A DNA stretch of 64,000 nt from Anabaena sphaerica FACHB-251. GTDB taxonomy: Bacteria; Cyanobacteriota; Cyanobacteriia; Cyanobacteriales; Nostocaceae. A model generated the notes under the pieces. That model saw only the letters and a list, made by a program, of their open reading frames with translations. It was not told the origin of the DNA and searched no databases. Made by a program: the position numbers and the translations under genes. Position 1 is the stretch's first letter, and every line of letters starts with the position of its first letter. Shown here in pieces: positions 56,805-64,000 of this stretch. The DNA is taken from positions 50,933 to 114,932 of the forward strand of contig NZ_JACJQU010000019.1 in assembly GCF_014696825.1 (NCBI RefSeq), given 5' to 3'.

Positions 56805-56865
56805 AATGCTGACTGCTGCTGTAAGTTATAATAGTTTCCGGTCTAATTATTTAGGAGGTGAGATG

Positions 56866-57483
56866 ATGCTTATTGCTAATACCAACCCGCCGATTATTAC
56901 TCCAGAAATGACAAAAACTCACTTTACTCCAGATGAGTATAGAGAGATGGAGGAAACTGCCGAAGAACGTCACGAATACCGCAACGGAGAGATTATTATT
57001 ATGCCTGGAGGGTCAGAAATTCATAGTGCGATCGCTAGTAATATTTTAATTTATTTAGGATTTTCACTCAGAGATACTAATTTTCGTTTTTATGGTGGTG
57101 ATTTGCGGGTTTGGATTCCTAATTTTAATCATGGAACTTATGCTGATGTGCTGGTGATTAATGGTGAACCGGAATTTAATAATAATCGCACGGATGAAAT
57201 TCTCAATCCTCTCCTAATTATTGAAGTTCTGTCACCTTCAACAGAAGGTTATGATAGAGGAGATAAATTCAGAAAATATCGCTCTCTTCCTAGCTTTTGT
57301 GAATATGTGCTGGTAAGTCAAACTGAATCTTATATTGAGCAGTATTATAAACAGGATGATAAAAATAATAATCTTTGGCAATTGCAAGTTTATGATCAGA
57401 TTGATAAATCAGTTTTTCTACATACTTTAAATGTAGAACTTCCCATGAATGAAATTTATCGACGGGTTAAATTTTCAGGTTGA
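56866..57483 (+). CDS. Uma2 family (DUF820) PD-(D/E)XK protein
   Basis: The product of about 205 aa has Uma2 motifs EEYREMEETAEERHEYRNGEIIIMPGG, ADVLVINGEPEF, LLIIEVLSPSTEGYDRGDKFRKYRSLPS and EYVLVSQTE. The fold is of the restriction-endonuclease type, with catalytic acids in D-V...I-E-V-x-S. These proteins are very abundant in cyanobacteria, with no proven role. AGGAGG at 56853-56858 sits best before ATG 56866; the frame from 56806 is ignored. Confidence 0.9.
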   Translation: MLIANTNPPIITPEMTKTHFTPDEYREMEETAEERHEYRNGEIIIMPGGSEIHSAIASNILIYLGFSLRDTNFRFYGGDLRVWIPNFNHGTYADVLVINGEPEFNNNRTDEILNPLLIIEVLSPSTEGYDRGDKFRKYRSLPSFCEYVLVSQTESYIEQYYKQDDKNNNLWQLQVYDQIDKSVFLHTLNVELPMNEIYRRVKFSG

Positions 57484-57529
57484 TGTTTTCACACACAACA
57501 AATTAATAACCTGGTAATATTGGATGATA

Positions 57530-57563
57530 AAAATAGTGCGTCAAATGCTATTAACGCACCACT
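57530..57563. terminator. hairpin between convergent genes
   Basis: GTGCGT (from about 57536) pairs with ACGCAC over a spacer of about 13 bases containing AAATGCTATT. Located between the convergent Uma2 and serine hydrolase genes, it may end transcription on both strands; T-runs are short. Confidence 0.4.
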
Positions 57564-57573
57564 CATATCATGT

Positions 57574-58512
57574 TTATAAATTGCTAACCGCTTCCGCAAT
57601 TTTTCCCGAAACAAAGGGTAAAATTTCCCGACTCTTAGCTTGCTCTTTCCCTTCCGTAAAAACTACTAACAAATAAGGACGCTGATCTGGTAATTCAATA
57701 TAAGCCGCATCATGGCGCACAGAACTTGTCCAACCGGCTTTTGACCAGATTTGACTATTTTGGGGTAATCCGCTGCCTAAAAAGCCTGTAATCTGGTCTT
57801 CTTCCACATCTTGGGGTAACTCATCAGGGTTAAGACTGCGTTTGAGTAAAGACATCATAGATTGCGATCGCCCACTGGACACCGCCACCCCACCCACGAT
57901 ACTATGCAATAATCTGGCAGTAGCATTGGTAGTTAGCATATTGCGATTTTCAAACATTTCCCCATAAAACGCCCTTTCTCTTCCATAGGGACCATCACCC
58001 CAAGTTTTTTGACAGACGTTAATACTCGTCATTTCTTCCCAACCCAAGGACTGATAATAGCGGTTAATAATATTGCGTTGATATTTCCAAGTTTCAAAAG
58101 GTCCATTGGGTAACTCTGGTCCAGAAGTAGTACCGCTGAGAATATCAACAACTAAACTGGTAGCATCATTACTAGAGTCAACAATCATATCACCCAAGGC
58201 TCTTTCTAATTCCTTGGAAGTGTTAGTCATTCCTTTTTCTAACCATTCATGAACCGCTACTAAATAAACCAACTTGACTACACTAGCGGGATAGATGCGT
58301 TCTCCACCACGATAACTAAATCCTCTCACGGGATGAGTCCAAAAAGCGTCAGGAGTCAATGCACCACCTGTATTTACAGGAACAGGAGGATCATACACAA
58401 TCCATGTTAAAGCAATTTGGTTATGGGCTAAACTTGCAAAGTTAGACCAAGTAGCCTCTAAAATTTCATTACCGAGATTTTCTAGTTGTTCGTCTTTATT
58501 GAAAAAAACCAT
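57574..58512 (-). CDS. serine hydrolase of the class A beta-lactamase fold
   Basis: The 312-aa product shows the penicillin-recognising motifs Y-P-A-S-V-V-K (S-x-x-K), a second S-S-N-D (SDN-like) and W-S-K-A-G-W (K-T-G replaced by K-A-G). These indicate an acyl-serine enzyme. There is no signal peptide, unlike true beta-lactamases, so it should act in the cytosol. The altered third motif and missing Glu166 region argue against antibiotic hydrolysis. Substrate unknown. ATG at 58512 is used. It is monocistronic. Confidence 0.8.
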   Translation of the reverse strand: MVFFNKDEQLENLGNEILEATWSNFASLAHNQIALTWIVYDPPVPVNTGGALTPDAFWTHPVRGFSYRGGERIYPASVVKLVYLVAVHEWLEKGMTNTSKELERALGDMIVDSSNDATSLVVDILSGTTSGPELPNGPFETWKYQRNIINRYYQSLGWEEMTSINVCQKTWGDGPYGRERAFYGEMFENRNMLTTNATARLLHSIVGGVAVSSGRSQSMMSLLKRSLNPDELPQDVEEDQITGFLGSGLPQNSQIWSKAGWTSSVRHDAAYIELPDQRPYLLVVFTEGKEQAKSREILPFVSGKIAEAVSNL

Positions 58513-58592
58513 TTGCTAATAATTTCCTTGAAGATCTCAAAATGTTAATTTCTCTAATTATAATAACATTAATTATATACTAATTATCATAG

Positions 58593-58967
58593 ACAATAAA
58601 TACAAGAACTCAACAAGAAATATCAGCGCCATCAAATCAAGTCATAATAGAAATTATCACCACGATCATCTCCTACAAATTTGAAAACTTAACCCGCAGT
58701 GAGGCTGAAGCTATGTTAGGAATAACCCTCAAAGAAACCCGACTTTATCGAGATATAAAAGAAGAAGGAAGAGAAGAAGGTGCAGAACAAGCAACAGTTA
58801 ATTTAGTGATGCGACAGTTGACTAAGCGGTTTGGAGAATTATCAGCAGAAAGACGCGCTGAAATCTCTACTTTACCGTTACATATATTGGAAGATTTGAG
58901 CGAAGCTTTGTTAGATTTTACCAGTTTAGCTGATTTAGAAAGTTGGTTAGCAGAGGTAAAAAATTAA
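58593..58967 (+). pseudogene. Rpn/DUF2887-DUF4351 family relic, N-terminal half missing
   Basis: An open stretch after TAG 58590-58592 has QQEISAPSNQVIIEIITTII, then RSEAEAMLGI-x-LKETRLYRD, then repeated EEGREEG, and the DUF4351 domain (RQLTKRFGELS...LLDFTSLADLESWLAEV). These are the C-terminal parts of Rpn-type recombination-promoting nucleases common in cyanobacteria. The PD-(D/E)XK nuclease part is absent and no normal start exists upstream. ATG 58713 could still give an 84-aa peptide. It is a truncated relic. Confidence 0.75.
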
Positions 58968-59126: not shown

Positions 59127-59155
59127 TTGTTTGGTTCTGTTATAAACTGTATAAT
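59127..59155 (+). promoter_or_regulatory. sigma-70 type promoter for the ATPase-STAND operon
   Basis: TTGTTT (59127-59132) and TATAAT (59150-59155) are spaced by 17 bp. The predicted start is near 59162, leaving a leader of about 29 bases before ATG 59191. It is the best promoter match in the right end of the window. Confidence 0.55.
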
Positions 59156-59190: not shown

Positions 59191-60492
59191 ATGAAACTGG
59201 ATTTAACGAGGTTTTATCAAGCTTGTAACCCTAATAAAACTCTTGATCAAAGCAAAGCTGAAGATAGACAATACTATATTGATTTTTCCGACGTGCGGGG
59301 TGCAGAAATAATTAGAGAATTAAAACGAACTATTACTCTGCTTTCTCCAGAATCACCAACTTGTCAATTATTTACAGGACATATTGGTTGCGGTAAGTCT
59401 ACAGAATTGCTAAGATTAAAAGCAGAATTACAAGACCAGGGATTTCATGTAGTTTATTTTGAATCTAGTCAAAGTTTAGATTTAGCTGATATTGATATTA
59501 CAGATATTTTGTTAGCAATAGCTAGAGAAGTTAGTCAAAGTTTAGAAGCAGCAGAAATTAAACTCAAACCAGGATATTTTCAAAATCTATTTACCGAAAT
59601 AGCTGAACTTTTACAAACCCCTCTAGATATTGGTGTGGAAGCGGAATTATCTGTGGGTATTGGCAAAATTACCGCCAAAACTAAAGATAGTCCTAAACTG
59701 CGTAGTCAATTACGACAATATTTAGAACCCCGCACCAATGGCATTTTAGAATCAATTAACAAAGAATTACTCATACCTGCAAAAGAAAGACTGAAAAAAC
59801 AAGGTAAACAAGGTTTAGTAGTTATTATTGATAACCTCGACAGGGTAGATAATGCACTAAAACCAAATGGTCAATATCAACCAGAGTATTTATTTGTAGA
59901 ACGGGGTGAACAGTTAAATAAATTAAACTGTCATGTTGTTTATACAATTCCCCTAGTTCTGATATTTTCTAACGCTTTAGGTAGATTAACAAATCGCTTT
60001 GGAGTAGATCCTAAAGTGTTACCAATGGTAGCGATTAAACAGAGGAATGGTAAAGATTACCAAGCAGGAATTACACTTCTACAACAAATGGTAATGGCCA
60101 GGGCTTTTCCTGGGGTAAGTGATGAAGAAAATCAAAGTTTAATTACCAGAATTTTTGATAGTCCGGAGACATTAGAAAGACTTTGTAAAGTTAGCGGTGG
60201 TCATTTGCGTAACTTGTTAATGTTATTATTTCGCTGTTTGCAAATAGAAGATACACCAATTTCTAAAAAATGTGTAGAAAGCGTTATCAAAAAACGTTGT
60301 AATGAGTTAAGTTTAGCAATTACAGATGATGAATGGGAGTTACTAAAGGAAGTACAGAAAACCAAAACCTATAGAGGTGAAGACAAATATGATATCCTAC
60401 TTCGTAGTATGTTTGTTTTTGAATATCGAGATGATGAAGGTTCTTGGTTTGATATTAATCCCATTTTGATAGAATCAAAGGAATTAATGTAA
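59191..60492 (+). CDS. P-loop ATPase upstream of the STAND gene
   Basis: The 433-aa soluble protein has Walker A GHIGCGKST (residues 63-71) and Walker B VVIIDNLDRVD (210-220). A putative sensor segment is SGGHLRNLLMLLFRCLQ near 345, and a C-terminal winged-helix-like domain follows (LAITDDEWELLKEVQKTK...DILLRSMFVFEYRDDEGSWFDI). The order resembles ORC/Cdc6 or KAP/STAND-type AAA ATPases. A middle insertion VEAELSVGIGKITAKTKDSP could be a partner-binding segment. Its TAA shares one base with the ATG of the next gene (TAATG), so both are translated together. Confidence 0.75.
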   Translation: MKLDLTRFYQACNPNKTLDQSKAEDRQYYIDFSDVRGAEIIRELKRTITLLSPESPTCQLFTGHIGCGKSTELLRLKAELQDQGFHVVYFESSQSLDLADIDITDILLAIAREVSQSLEAAEIKLKPGYFQNLFTEIAELLQTPLDIGVEAELSVGIGKITAKTKDSPKLRSQLRQYLEPRTNGILESINKELLIPAKERLKKQGKQGLVVIIDNLDRVDNALKPNGQYQPEYLFVERGEQLNKLNCHVVYTIPLVLIFSNALGRLTNRFGVDPKVLPMVAIKQRNGKDYQAGITLLQQMVMARAFPGVSDEENQSLITRIFDSPETLERLCKVSGGHLRNLLMLLFRCLQIEDTPISKKCVESVIKKRCNELSLAITDDEWELLKEVQKTKTYRGEDKYDILLRSMFVFEYRDDEGSWFDINPILIESKELM

Positions 60493-63400
60493 TGAATAAT
60501 CAAGAAAATCTTCCTGAAAATAACGATAATTCTCTCAGAACCATATTAAGAGCAATTAATTTTTCTCAAGGTCAATTATCACTGATTTTTCTCCGCTGCA
60601 ATTATGCTAAATTACGTCAGCAGATAGCATCACAACTGCAAGAAATTTCTTCTATACCAATTAGAGAAATTACTTTACCAGAATCAGCTAAAAGTCTCTA
60701 CGATAATATATTTCAAGAATTGGTAAATGAACAACCACAAGCTTTGATGATTTCTGGTTTAGACTCTGTTAAAAATATTGATGCAATATTGAGTTTATCT
60801 AATCAAATTCGAGAGGAATTTAGAAAAAGCTTTCCTTTTCCGATTCTGATTTGGATAGATGACCAAATTCTCAGAAAAATCATCAGAGTTGCACCAGATT
60901 TAGAAAACTGGGGGAGTATTATTGACTTTGAAAATGATACTGACGATTTAATTGATTTACTTCGAGAAACAACAGAAGGAATATTTACTCATGATGTTAC
61001 TCCCACTTCTCAAGTTTACAAAGAAATAGAAGCTGCACGTCAGGATTTACAAAACCGAGGAGAAAATATAGACCCAGAAATTCAAGCTGGTTTAGATTTT
61101 GCTTTTGGTTTACGGGAATATCAACAAGATCATCTAGATGATGCTTTAATTTATTATCGGCGAAGTTGTGAATTTTGGCAAATTCATCATAATTTAGAAC
61201 GTCACGGGATTCTTTTGGTTAAAATATCTTTAGCTTATAGTCGAAAAGCTGAAATTAGTAACACCGAAAATCAAGAAGATTGGCAAAATGCGAGAGATAA
61301 TTTACAGCAAGCTTTAGATATTTTTGAACAAGCAGAAAGATTAGATTTAGTTGTTGAATATATCAATCGTTTGGGTGATATATTACGACATTTAAAAGCA
61401 TGGAATGATTTAGAAACTCTCGCTCAAAAATCGCTTAAATTATATGAAAACCTCTCTCCAAACCTCTCTCCTACGAGGAGAGAGGCTTTTTCTGTTCCCC
61501 ATTCCCTAGCAGGGAAGGGGGTTAGGGGGTTAGGTCAAAATTATGGGTTTCTCGCAGAAGTAGCATTAAAAAATAAAGAATGGACAAAAGCAAACCAGTA
61601 CGCGCAGCAATCATTAGATATTTTAACTAATATTCCTAATATACAATCTCAAGAATTTGGTTTATATCACTTATTTCAGGCACTTTCTCAGATAGGTTTA
61701 GGGGAAATTTCCGCAGCAATTCAAACTTTAGAAACTGCGAAGAACGAAAGTCATCCTCAATATGATCCTAAACTATATATTGATATTTTAGAACAATTAA
61801 ATTTTCTGTATTTTCAAGAAAAACAATATTTAAAAGCTTTTGAAATTAAACAAGAAAGATTACAAATTAAACAACAATATGGATTTGTAGCTTTTGTTGG
61901 TGCATCTTATTTAAATCCCCAACGTAAAGTTATTAATCCCGCAAATTCAGATATTGAAAATACAGGAACAATTGCACAAGAAATTTCTGCTTCTGGAAGA
62001 GAACAAGATGTTAAACGGTTGCGGGGAAGAATTGCTAGTAATGAACATAAATTAACTGTGATTCATGGACAGTCTGGAGTTGGTAAAAGTTCGATTTTAC
62101 AAGGTGGTTTAATTCCTGCACTGCAACAAGAACCTATTGGAGAACGTGACGCTTTACCTATACTTTTACGGGTTTATACAAATTGGGTAGAAATTTTAGG
62201 AGAATCTTTAAAATCAAATGTAGGGACAATTCATGAATTGTCCCTACATTCCACAGAAACAATTATTCAACAACTACGAAAAAATGCCGACAGAAATTTA
62301 TTAACGGTTTTGATATTTGACCAATTTGAAGAATTTTTCTTTGTTTATAAAAACCAAAAACACAGAAAACCATTTTATGACTTTTTGCGAATCTGTTTAG
62401 ATATTCCTTTTGTGAAAATTGTCCTTTCTTTACGAGAAGATTATTTACATTATTTATTAGAATTAGATCGTTTAGTTGATTTGAAAGTTACCAATAATAA
62501 CATTCTTGATAAAAATATTCGTTATTATTTGGGTAATTTCTTGCCCGAAGATGCTAAAGCTGTGATTAAAAGCCTCACCGAAAAAACCCGCCTTTATTTA
62601 CAATCAGAATTAATTGATGAATTAGTCAAAGACTTAGCAGGAGATATTGGGGAAGTTAGACCGATTGAATTACAAATAGTTGGGACACAATTACAAACTG
62701 AACAAATTAAAACTTTAGAAAAATATCGAGAATTTGGTAAAGAAAAATTAGTTGAGGGTTTTTTAGAAAATGTAATTAAAGATTGTGGTACAGAAAATGA
62801 ACAAAAAGCAAGACTGGTTTTGTATTTACTCACAGATGAAAATGGTACAAGACCTTTAAAAACTCGTATTGAATTAGCAGAACAGTTACCAGCAGGAACT
62901 AAAAACCTGGATTTAGTTTTAAATATTTTCGTTGCGTCTGGTTTGGTGTTACTCTTACCAGAATCACCTGCGGATAGATATCAATTAGTGCATGATTATT
63001 TAGTTGAGTTTATTCGTCAACAACAGGGAAATGAGTTACTGGAGAAATTAGCTAAAGCTGAAGCAGATTTAAAACAGGAACAGGAAGCAAGACAAATATT
63101 AGCTAATGCGAAAATTCACGCTGATGAACAAATTAAAGAAGGGCAAAAAAGATTAAAATTAAGTTCTGGTTTAGCTGTGAGTTTAGTAGTAATTGCGGGT
63201 ATGGCTTCTGTTTATGGTATGACTCAGTTGAGCGAAACTACAAAAGCCAAAATCAAACAAAATGAATTACAACAACAAACGCAACTATTAGAAAGTCAAA
63301 CTAAAGATTTAGAACTAAAATCTCAACAAGCAGAGAAAAAAAGTCTAGCAGTAGAAAAGAACTTTAAATTAGCAGAACAAAATACTCAAAAAGCACAAAA

Positions 63401-64000
63401 AAATCTATCAGCAGCTAAAGCTAAAGTAGCCGAAGTAAATAAACAAGCAGACGAACTAAAACAGCAAAATATAGCAGCAGCAGAAAAAATTCAAGCAGCT
63501 AATGATAATATAAAAACTGCGGACGATAAATTAAAAGAAGCAAAGATACAACAACAAGAAGCAGAAAGGAAAGCTAAAGAAGCTCAAAAAACCTTTAAAA
63601 TAGCAAATGCCGCATTAAAAACAACAGAGATAGCTAAACAAGCAGCACTCAAAGCCCAACAAGAAGCATTACTAGTTACCAAACTAGAACAAGGTGGAGT
63701 GAATGTTTTAAGACAATTTCAACTTGAAGAATTGCCAGCTTTAGTATCTGCTTTAAAAAATGGTAAAGCTTTAAAAAAGATAGTTAAAAATAATCCCCTG
63801 GATAAATATCCCACCATTAGCCCTATTTATGCCTTAAATAATATCCTCGACAATATTAGCGAACGTAACCAATTTAAAGGGCATCAGGGTACAGTCTTAA
63901 GTGTGAGTTTCAGCCCCGACGGCAAAACCATCGCTACCGCATCCTCAGACAATACAGCGCGGTTGTGGAACTTGCAGGGGCAACTGATTCAGGAATTGAA
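60492..64000 (+). CDS. large STAND NTPase with TPR, membrane segment, coiled coil and WD40 (cut by window end)
   Basis: From ATG 60492 the frame is open to the right edge, giving 1169+ residues. Domains in order: a degenerate ATPase-like N-terminal domain (about 1-175) and a TPR region (about 195-500) with the repeat insert at 320-349. The nSTAND-type NTPase core has Walker A GQSGVGKSS (526-534) and Walker B LIFDQFEEFFF (about 609-619), and KIVLSLREDYLHYLLEL is a sensor region. Next come a membrane helix (about 892-912), a long Lys/Gln/Ala coiled coil (915-1060) and the first WD40 repeat (GHQGTVLSVSFSPDG...SDNTARLWN, about 1131-1165). More WD40 repeats are expected beyond the edge. Such STAND proteins sense an input and oligomerise; effector unknown. 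Confidence 0.85.
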   Translation, partial: MNNQENLPENNDNSLRTILRAINFSQGQLSLIFLRCNYAKLRQQIASQLQEISSIPIREITLPESAKSLYDNIFQELVNEQPQALMISGLDSVKNIDAILSLSNQIREEFRKSFPFPILIWIDDQILRKIIRVAPDLENWGSIIDFENDTDDLIDLLRETTEGIFTHDVTPTSQVYKEIEAARQDLQNRGENIDPEIQAGLDFAFGLREYQQDHLDDALIYYRRSCEFWQIHHNLERHGILLVKISLAYSRKAEISNTENQEDWQNARDNLQQALDIFEQAERLDLVVEYINRLGDILRHLKAWNDLETLAQKSLKLYENLSPNLSPTRREAFSVPHSLAGKGVRGLGQNYGFLAEVALKNKEWTKANQYAQQSLDILTNIPNIQSQEFGLYHLFQALSQIGLGEISAAIQTLETAKNESHPQYDPKLYIDILEQLNFLYFQEKQYLKAFEIKQERLQIKQQYGFVAFVGASYLNPQRKVINPANSDIENTGTIAQEISASGREQDVKRLRGRIASNEHKLTVIHGQSGVGKSSILQGGLIPALQQEPIGERDALPILLRVYTNWVEILGESLKSNVGTIHELSLHSTETIIQQLRKNADRNLLTVLIFDQFEEFFFVYKNQKHRKPFYDFLRICLDIPFVKIVLSLREDYLHYLLELDRLVDLKVTNNNILDKNIRYYLGNFLPEDAKAVIKSLTEKTRLYLQSELIDELVKDLAGDIGEVRPIELQIVGTQLQTEQIKTLEKYREFGKEKLVEGFLENVIKDCGTENEQKARLVLYLLTDENGTRPLKTRIELAEQLPAGTKNLDLVLNIFVASGLVLLLPESPADRYQLVHDYLVEFIRQQQGNELLEKLAKAEADLKQEQEARQILANAKIHADEQIKEGQKRLKLSSGLAVSLVVIAGMASVYGMTQLSETTKAKIKQNELQQQTQLLESQTKDLELKSQQAEKKSLAVEKNFKLAEQNTQKAQKNLSAAKAKVAEVNKQADELKQQNIAAAEKIQAANDNIKTADDKLKEAKIQQQEAERKAKEAQKTFKIANAALKTTEIAKQAALKAQQEALLVTKLEQGGVNVLRQFQLEELPALVSALKNGKALKKIVKNNPLDKYPTISPIYALNNILDNISERNQFKGHQGTVLSVSFSPDGKTIATASSDNTARLWNLQGQLIQEL
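61449..61537. repeat. MITE core inserted in frame in the STAND gene
   Basis: AACCTCTCTCCAAACCTCTC, then GAGGAGAGAGGC, then CCCTAGCAGGGAAGGGGGTT is the same core as in the MITEs at 44308 and 51591. It is translated in frame as about 30 residues (residues 320-349) in the TPR region and has no stop. Confidence 0.85.
62219..62248. repeat. 30-bp perfect palindrome in frame in the STAND gene
   Basis: TGTAGGGACAATTCA followed by its exact reverse complement encodes VGTIHELSLH. It falls between Walker A and Walker B. The palindrome is related to the intergenic one at 10257-10284. Confidence 0.85.

Follow-up and report, generated by a model that had tools for sequence, protein, structure and literature searches.

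The WRAP operon of Nostoc punctiforme (Npun_R6612 with a TIR–STAND partner) couples two ATPase genes in a cyanobacterium, and its STAND protein carries a WD40 array amplified to some 14 units, as given in the available part of its description (PMC9218822). A two-gene nSTAND2 conflict system, in which one STAND protein is eroded, combines two NTPases per operon with a variable module on one of them and a predicted heteromeric assembly (available part of PMC8195603). MoxR–vWA ternary conflict systems (VMAP, iSTAND), the iSTAND type of which is concentrated in cyanobacteria among others, join a constant NTPase core to variable ends and to TIR and caspase-type domains (excerpt of PMC7159879). In fungal HNWD proteins of the HET-E/HET-D type, a STAND protein bears WD40 repeats with high internal conservation, in which a few surface positions vary, with selection reported at four interaction-surface positions (accessible part of PMC4986451).

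The locus analysed here, taken with its relatives, resembles these systems in the respects named. It lies at the end of a 64,000-nucleotide stretch of Anabaena sphaerica FACHB-251 DNA (the window) and consists of an ATPase gene (gene 1) and a gene for a giant STAND protein with an additional N-terminal domain, NT (gene 2). A published description of such an ATPase–NT/STAND pair was not found in the open-licence literature. Our preferred reading, to which we give an even chance, is that the two gene products form one conserved unit: the ATPase would dock on NT and gate the STAND switch, the WD40 end would be a diversifying recognition surface, and the purpose would be non-self or self recognition.

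Two overlapping genes at a contig end

An earlier note, made from the letters of the window, had described two overlapping genes behind a clear −35/−10 pair. The overlap is present (Table 1), whereas the promoter is weaker than claimed: TATAAT is perfect at 59150–59155, the −35 element at 59127 matches just three of six positions, and the candidate is not among the sites listed by a consensus promoter scan. Upstream neighbours at 56806–58964 comprise a Uma2 nuclease family protein, a Beta-lactamase2-like protein and a DUF4351 protein. Both ORFs of the earlier note could be confirmed, and their domains were placed by Pfam, structure models and simple scores.

Table 1 Features of the two-gene locus in window coordinates
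Feature	Position	Strand	Basis
Possible promoter: TTGTTT, 17 nt, TATAAT, 35 nt 5' of the ATPase start	59127..59155	+	read from sequence
Gene 1, 433-aa AAA+/STAND-type P-loop ATPase	59191..60492	+	ORF list, Pfam, structure model
Gene 1 Walker A, GHIGCGKST, residues 63-71	59377..59403	+	59 aligned rows
Gene 1 Walker B, VVIIDNLD, residues 210-217	59818..59841	+	aligned rows
TAATG, gene 1 stop overlapping gene 2 start	60490..60494	+	sequence
Gene 2, giant STAND protein, cut by contig end	60492..64000	+	ORF list
NT, alpha/beta module lacking a P-loop, about residues 9-165, predicted dock for gene 1	60516..60986	+	profiles, model, alignment
TPR-like helical solenoid, about residues 150-462	61008..61877 (about residues 173-462)	+	structure model
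Dispersed ~100-bp repeat copy, in frame within TPR-coding part	61442..61544	+	genome matches
nSTAND1 NTPase	61977..63041	+	Pfam PF20703, 109.6 bits vs cut-off 27.1
nSTAND1 Walker A, GQSGVGKSS	62067-62093	+	55 aligned rows
nSTAND1 Walker B, VLIFDQFEE	62307-62333	+	55 aligned rows
Putative membrane helix, about residues 890-911	63159..63224	+	hydropathy
Heptad-rich, likely coiled-coil linker, about residues 925-1060	63264..63671	+	simple heptad score
First WD40 unit	63882..63998	+	Pfam

All 59 aligned rows, among them that of the window protein, retain the Walker A motif of gene 1 apart from small changes; in the two TIR-fused ATPase copies it ends in I instead of T; the form of Walker B is kept in the 53 listed of the 59 rows. 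Judged by Pfam score, membership of the KAP P-loop NTPases, which carry transmembrane inserts in the P-loop domain, is borderline: the KAP_NTPase score exceeds the threshold for gene 1 (24.4 bits, cut-off 20) and is 31 for L010 and 16.4 for the paralogue L011. ATPase_2 reaches 32 bits, under its cut-off of 33.2, and Pfam gives no AAA_35 or TIR match at E ≤ 0.1. The structure model (pLDDT 91) has Orc/Cdc6, TnsC, archaeal STAND-like proteins and CED-4 as neighbours. On a Nostoc C057 plasmid (L205, 4207–7131), the C-terminal part of a SAV_2336-type protein adjoining MoxR is distantly related to gene 1 (126 bits). Another gene 1 relative, in a stretch with no NT partner (L147, 489–2606), has about 275 extra N-terminal residues, which exceed no Pfam cut-off.

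Gene 2 is an ORF of 1169 amino acids (60492–63998) that is open at its end, the window edge being the end of contig C19. Its model, covering residues 1–850 (pLDDT 90), places STAND at about 496–850 after the helical solenoid, for which TPR_12 scores 25 bits, under its cut-off of 30.1. Walker A and B of the nSTAND1 core are intact in the window protein, with small changes among the aligned rows listed. By hydropathy, one segment inside the STAND core scores as high as the putative helix at about residues 890–908; a hydrophobic stretch between STAND and WD40 is found in 59 of the 81 WD40-type partners. The WD40 match scores 40.9 bits in Pfam, with one unit inside the window. The dispersed repeat, with more than 30 further copies in the genome (out of 63 matches), lies partly also inside gene 2 of the paralogue L011, and residues 325–336 in the repeat region form the lowest-confidence part of the model. 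The STAND-coding part contains a perfect 34-nt palindrome (62217–62250).

The missing 3' end of gene 2 is probably the open ORF at the end of contig C1 (L126, 6387–8048, minus strand), which holds 13 WD40 units and a tail like those of partner proteins. The join is not proven, as the match to the window's final 101 bases lies 126 bases inward on C1 and not at the tip of that contig. The commonest number of WD40 units in partners is 14 (43 of 96 ORFs).

The ATPase–partner pair and the NT domain

The same genome encodes two paralogous pairs, on contigs C2 and C31, which are 60% and 50% identical to the window copy over gene 1 and 42% and 38% over gene 2, tails included. The C2 partner has a WD40 end (13 Pfam stretches) and the C31 partner a PAS, histidine kinase and receiver end; these two tails are where the modular plan first becomes visible.

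Among named genomes, one scan retained 80 of 557 relatives, all labelled cyanobacteria. Gene 1 occurs in 83 of 386 genomes of the phylum (50 of 142 genera) and the NT profile in 84 of the same genomes: 81 have both, two the ATPase alone, three NT alone and 300 neither; the Fisher test of this co-occurrence, like the binomial test on WD40 positions, ignores relatedness. In both ATPase-only genomes (G011, G027) an ORF adjoining the distant ATPase has a weak NT-like match (16–22 bits). The NT-only genomes are G038, which is 73% complete, G274, in which the match contains stops (E 9.6e-4), and G280.

After duplicates were dropped, 158 of 166 ATPase ORFs were distinct, and five lay too near an end, leaving 153 testable. 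An NT-bearing ORF follows within 1.5 kb downstream in 141 of these, the window's own included, in a set of loci chosen by similarity and pooled from named and unnamed sources that possibly share genomes. The median distance to the NT ORF is 61 bases between stop-to-stop frames. Four further ATPase ORFs have NT farther away (three behind a second ATPase), and eight have none downstream on the same strand, one of them (L048) with a convergent partner. Partner proteins without an adjacent ATPase occur at L180, L181, L182, L186 and in G280. Nearest-paralogue assignments of ATPase and NT agree in 120 of 138 pairs and disagree in 18, against a mean of 64.7 and a maximum of 84 agreements in 10,000 shuffles. 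The adjacency and the genome counts both support a conserved pair. Neither outcome that the earlier note had named as speaking against its proposal, genes apart in related genomes or a match to a well-studied WD40 regulator without an ATPase partner, was found. One locus (L157, 1061–12753) contains two ATPase–STAND pairs in tandem.

The earlier note had paired gene 1 with the first part of the STAND protein, which it took for a degenerate ATPase. The sequence does not support that origin: profile comparison of NT with gene 1 gives a probability of 0.3%, and the corresponding loop contains no GKS or GKT in 55 aligned rows, so we rejected NT as an ATPase recognisable by sequence. No Pfam or NCBIfam family exceeds its cut-off over NT, and the structural-neighbour rows for gene 2 hardly covered it. 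The other half of the proposal, that the first ~165 residues form a module of their own that goes with the ATPase, is borne out by stand-alone NT ORFs and by NT doubling. At five loci (L127, L129, L146, L167, L168) NT is a separate ORF of 164–174 aa straight after the ATPase. At L127 and L129 a giant ORF follows the ATPase and the small NT protein; by eye it is of protein kinase/AAA/GAF/PAS type (L127 read). Further stand-alone NT ORFs of 156–204 aa (L169–L179, L183) have no ATPase in the fetched stretch, and the two scanned (L169, L173) exceed no Pfam cut-off. Among distinct STAND partner ORFs, 104 of 106 have one NT; the two with two NTs (L060, L187) belong to the three tandem-ATPase loci, in which NT is doubled within one protein or, at L040, in neighbouring ORFs. 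Because NT occurs as a small ORF beside the ATPase, and twice where there are two ATPases, it is likely the docking domain of the ATPase. In G027 and G018 the partner consists of NT and TPR without STAND, and for this reason the combination of the ATPase with NT–TPR may be the more ancient core.

An improbable alternative is that the ATPase is a separate, MoxR-like assembly factor or chaperone, which would load or remodel the STAND protein without being a stable subunit. Its AAA+ fold is close to the loader ATPases Orc/Cdc6 and TnsC, and the distant relative on the Nostoc C057 plasmid (126 bits) is the C-terminal part of a SAV_2336 protein encoded next to MoxR. In the counted loci, however, two ATPases go with two NTs and one with one, which fits stoichiometric binding better, and in some relatives a TIR effector is fused to the ATPase itself.

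Variable tails and WD40 variation

Among 95 partner ORFs uncut at the end, 81 have WD40 tails, two CHASE2, one a hybrid histidine kinase and 11 none of these. Four of the 11 (L064, L144, L182, L185) are followed by separate WD40-matching ORFs and look like broken genes, and a fifth (L130) has divergent WD40 by Pfam. At L060, L187 (a plasmid of Calothrix NIES-4101) and L040, the first ATPase is followed by a second with a C-terminal TIR, matched by TIR_2 at E 1e-31 in L060 and 1e-30 in L040 and assigned in L187 by similarity to L060; one of these three loci sits on a mobilizable plasmid. Their gene 2 has no WD40 match. The region behind TIR in L060 and L040 matches no Pfam family and may be 'effector-associated'. 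The earlier note had seen no known effector domain before the window edge and supposed that the architecture might be new. That view has to be modified: relatives carry TIR on a second ATPase, a hybrid histidine kinase or CHASE2, and WRAP has the same plan with other ATPases.

The 12 comparable WD40 units of C1 differ mainly at five positions, and silent changes lie chiefly outside these; positions 18 and 20 carry some. Of 66 arrays with at least seven units, 14 exceed 80% DNA identity between units and 52 do not. In these 14 conserved arrays, 56% of the non-synonymous differences are concentrated at five of 33 positions, and non-synonymous and synonymous differences are 0.552 and 0.022 at the five positions against 0.077 and 0.070 elsewhere; the positions were fixed only after all 14 arrays, partly close relatives, were known. 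They are the top five of the C1 array, and in the other 13 arrays 34 of 39 top-three slots fall there. Constraint on the other residues may account for part of the pattern, but the paucity of silent changes at the variable codons argues for recent, selected change. Selection at similar positions is known from Podospora HNWD repeats. We also compared seven WRAP-like loci (L237–L243), which had been retrieved with a segment of the solved WRAP chain. In five of their seven arrays, four or more of the five positions rank among the top five, and the five positions hold over half of the non-synonymous differences in four of the seven; the pattern is thus not private to the ATPase–NT–STAND family.

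The tails raise the possibility, which we consider real if rather doubtful, of a general environmental or developmental signalling pair, in which one ATPase–NT–TPR–STAND front end would serve different inputs and outputs. The histidine kinase–receiver tail of the C31 partner and the CHASE2 tails would suit such a role, as would the presence of gene 1 in 40 of the 42 listed genomes of the window's family, unlike patchy defence genes, and the lack of a defence neighbourhood and of phage carriage described below. The five-position WD40 pattern speaks against it. So do the three loci with a TIR–ATPase fusion, one of which is borne by a mobilizable plasmid, and an ATPase–partner pair that lies close to TIR and NB-ARC genes on a conjugative plasmid of Acaryochloris.

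Neither defence profiles nor gene neighbourhood nor phage carriage lends support to the defence role considered in the earlier note. A known antiphage system was rejected by PADLOC 2.0.0, the best profile match being 23.9 bits for gene 1 (PDC-S20, residues 63–218) and 10.4 bits for gene 2. A defence-island context was also rejected, as PADLOC matches are not enriched in the flanks relative to arbitrary regions: at E ≤ 1e-15, 14 families were found in 145 of 335 flank ORFs against 166 in 145 of 198 control ORFs (20 arbitrary regions), a crude comparison with at most three members listed per family and a control seemingly raised by genes of type III CRISPR systems and by many PD-T4-6 models (two members each). 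No pair was found in phage records or viral contigs, and phage carriage was dismissed. In favour of immunity as the inferred purpose are TIR, the pair on the Acaryochloris plasmid, the diversifying WD40 tips and an architecture that resembles immune-type STAND receptors and NLR plans.

A possible receptor chassis and its relation to known systems

In our preferred reading of a two-protein recognition unit, the ATPase would dock on its partner's NT and thereby gate the STAND switch. A ligand on the WD40 tail would release the STAND module, which would assemble in an NTP-dependent manner at the membrane through the coiled coil, while the bound ATPase would set the threshold or join the assembly. 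Output would run via the attached module, TIR on the ATPase or a histidine kinase on the tail, and in the window copy via a separate partner. The purpose would be recognition of non-self or self, as in NLR-type receptors.

More broadly, and at somewhat less than an even chance, the family may be an undescribed cyanobacterial receptor chassis, in which each NT would recruit one cognate ATPase and the front end would be mounted on WD40, hybrid-kinase, CHASE2 or TIR modules. The pairs would then be NLR-like receptors of filamentous cyanobacteria with WD40 tips that diversify like those of fungal allorecognition receptors, independently of WRAP. If so, the same bacteria would contain two two-gene systems that are unrelated and yet have reached one plan of an ATPase partner and a membrane-tied STAND protein with WD40 changing at recognition tips. 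Bacterial WD40-receptor allorecognition or antiviral sensing would become directly testable in model Nostocales, and NT would be named as a function-bearing domain that lies under every Pfam and NCBIfam cut-off.

The described systems differ from the pair in several respects. A fungal HNWD receptor is encoded by one gene and in some cases has an N-terminal HET domain, and the accessible part of the source mentions no ATPase partner; the similarity is one of plan alone (PMC4986451). As to MoxR–vWA systems, no MoxR or vWA was found in the three scanned upstream neighbours, downstream lying past the contig end. In contrast to the nSTAND2 system, gene 2 is an nSTAND1 protein with intact motifs and NT–TPR as an extra module; nSTAND2 effectors are mostly GT4 or HEPN in the available part of PMC8195603. 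The window proteins gave no nSTAND2 match in Pfam, a library that may lack an nSTAND2 model.

The gene plan of the WRAP-like loci is the same: an ATPase gene overlaps the gene for a protein with STAND, membrane helix, coiled coil and WD40 parts. One WRAP-like protein, read by eye, has a hydrophobic and heptad-rich linker as in gene 2, and WRAP-like arrays vary at much the same blade positions as the gene 2 family. The counterpart of the WRAP array would be the one unit in the window with the 13 more on C1, provided that the unproven join holds. Membership of the WRAP (Npun_R6612) operon family, for which the shared gene plan and the agreement of variable positions in five of seven arrays could be adduced, nevertheless appears extremely improbable and was rejected. 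None of the seven WRAP-like loci matches the gene 1, NT, TPR or nSTAND1-part profiles, the partner is a TIR–AAA_35 protein in the two scanned (L237, L238), and a BLAST comparison of gene 1 with the L238 partner gives E 0.10; the plan alone is shared. TIR also sits differently, at the N-terminus of the partner in WRAP and at the C-terminus of a second ATPase in the ATPase–NT family. By these sequence comparisons, WRAP is the closest known system, with the same plan built on apparently unrelated ATPases.
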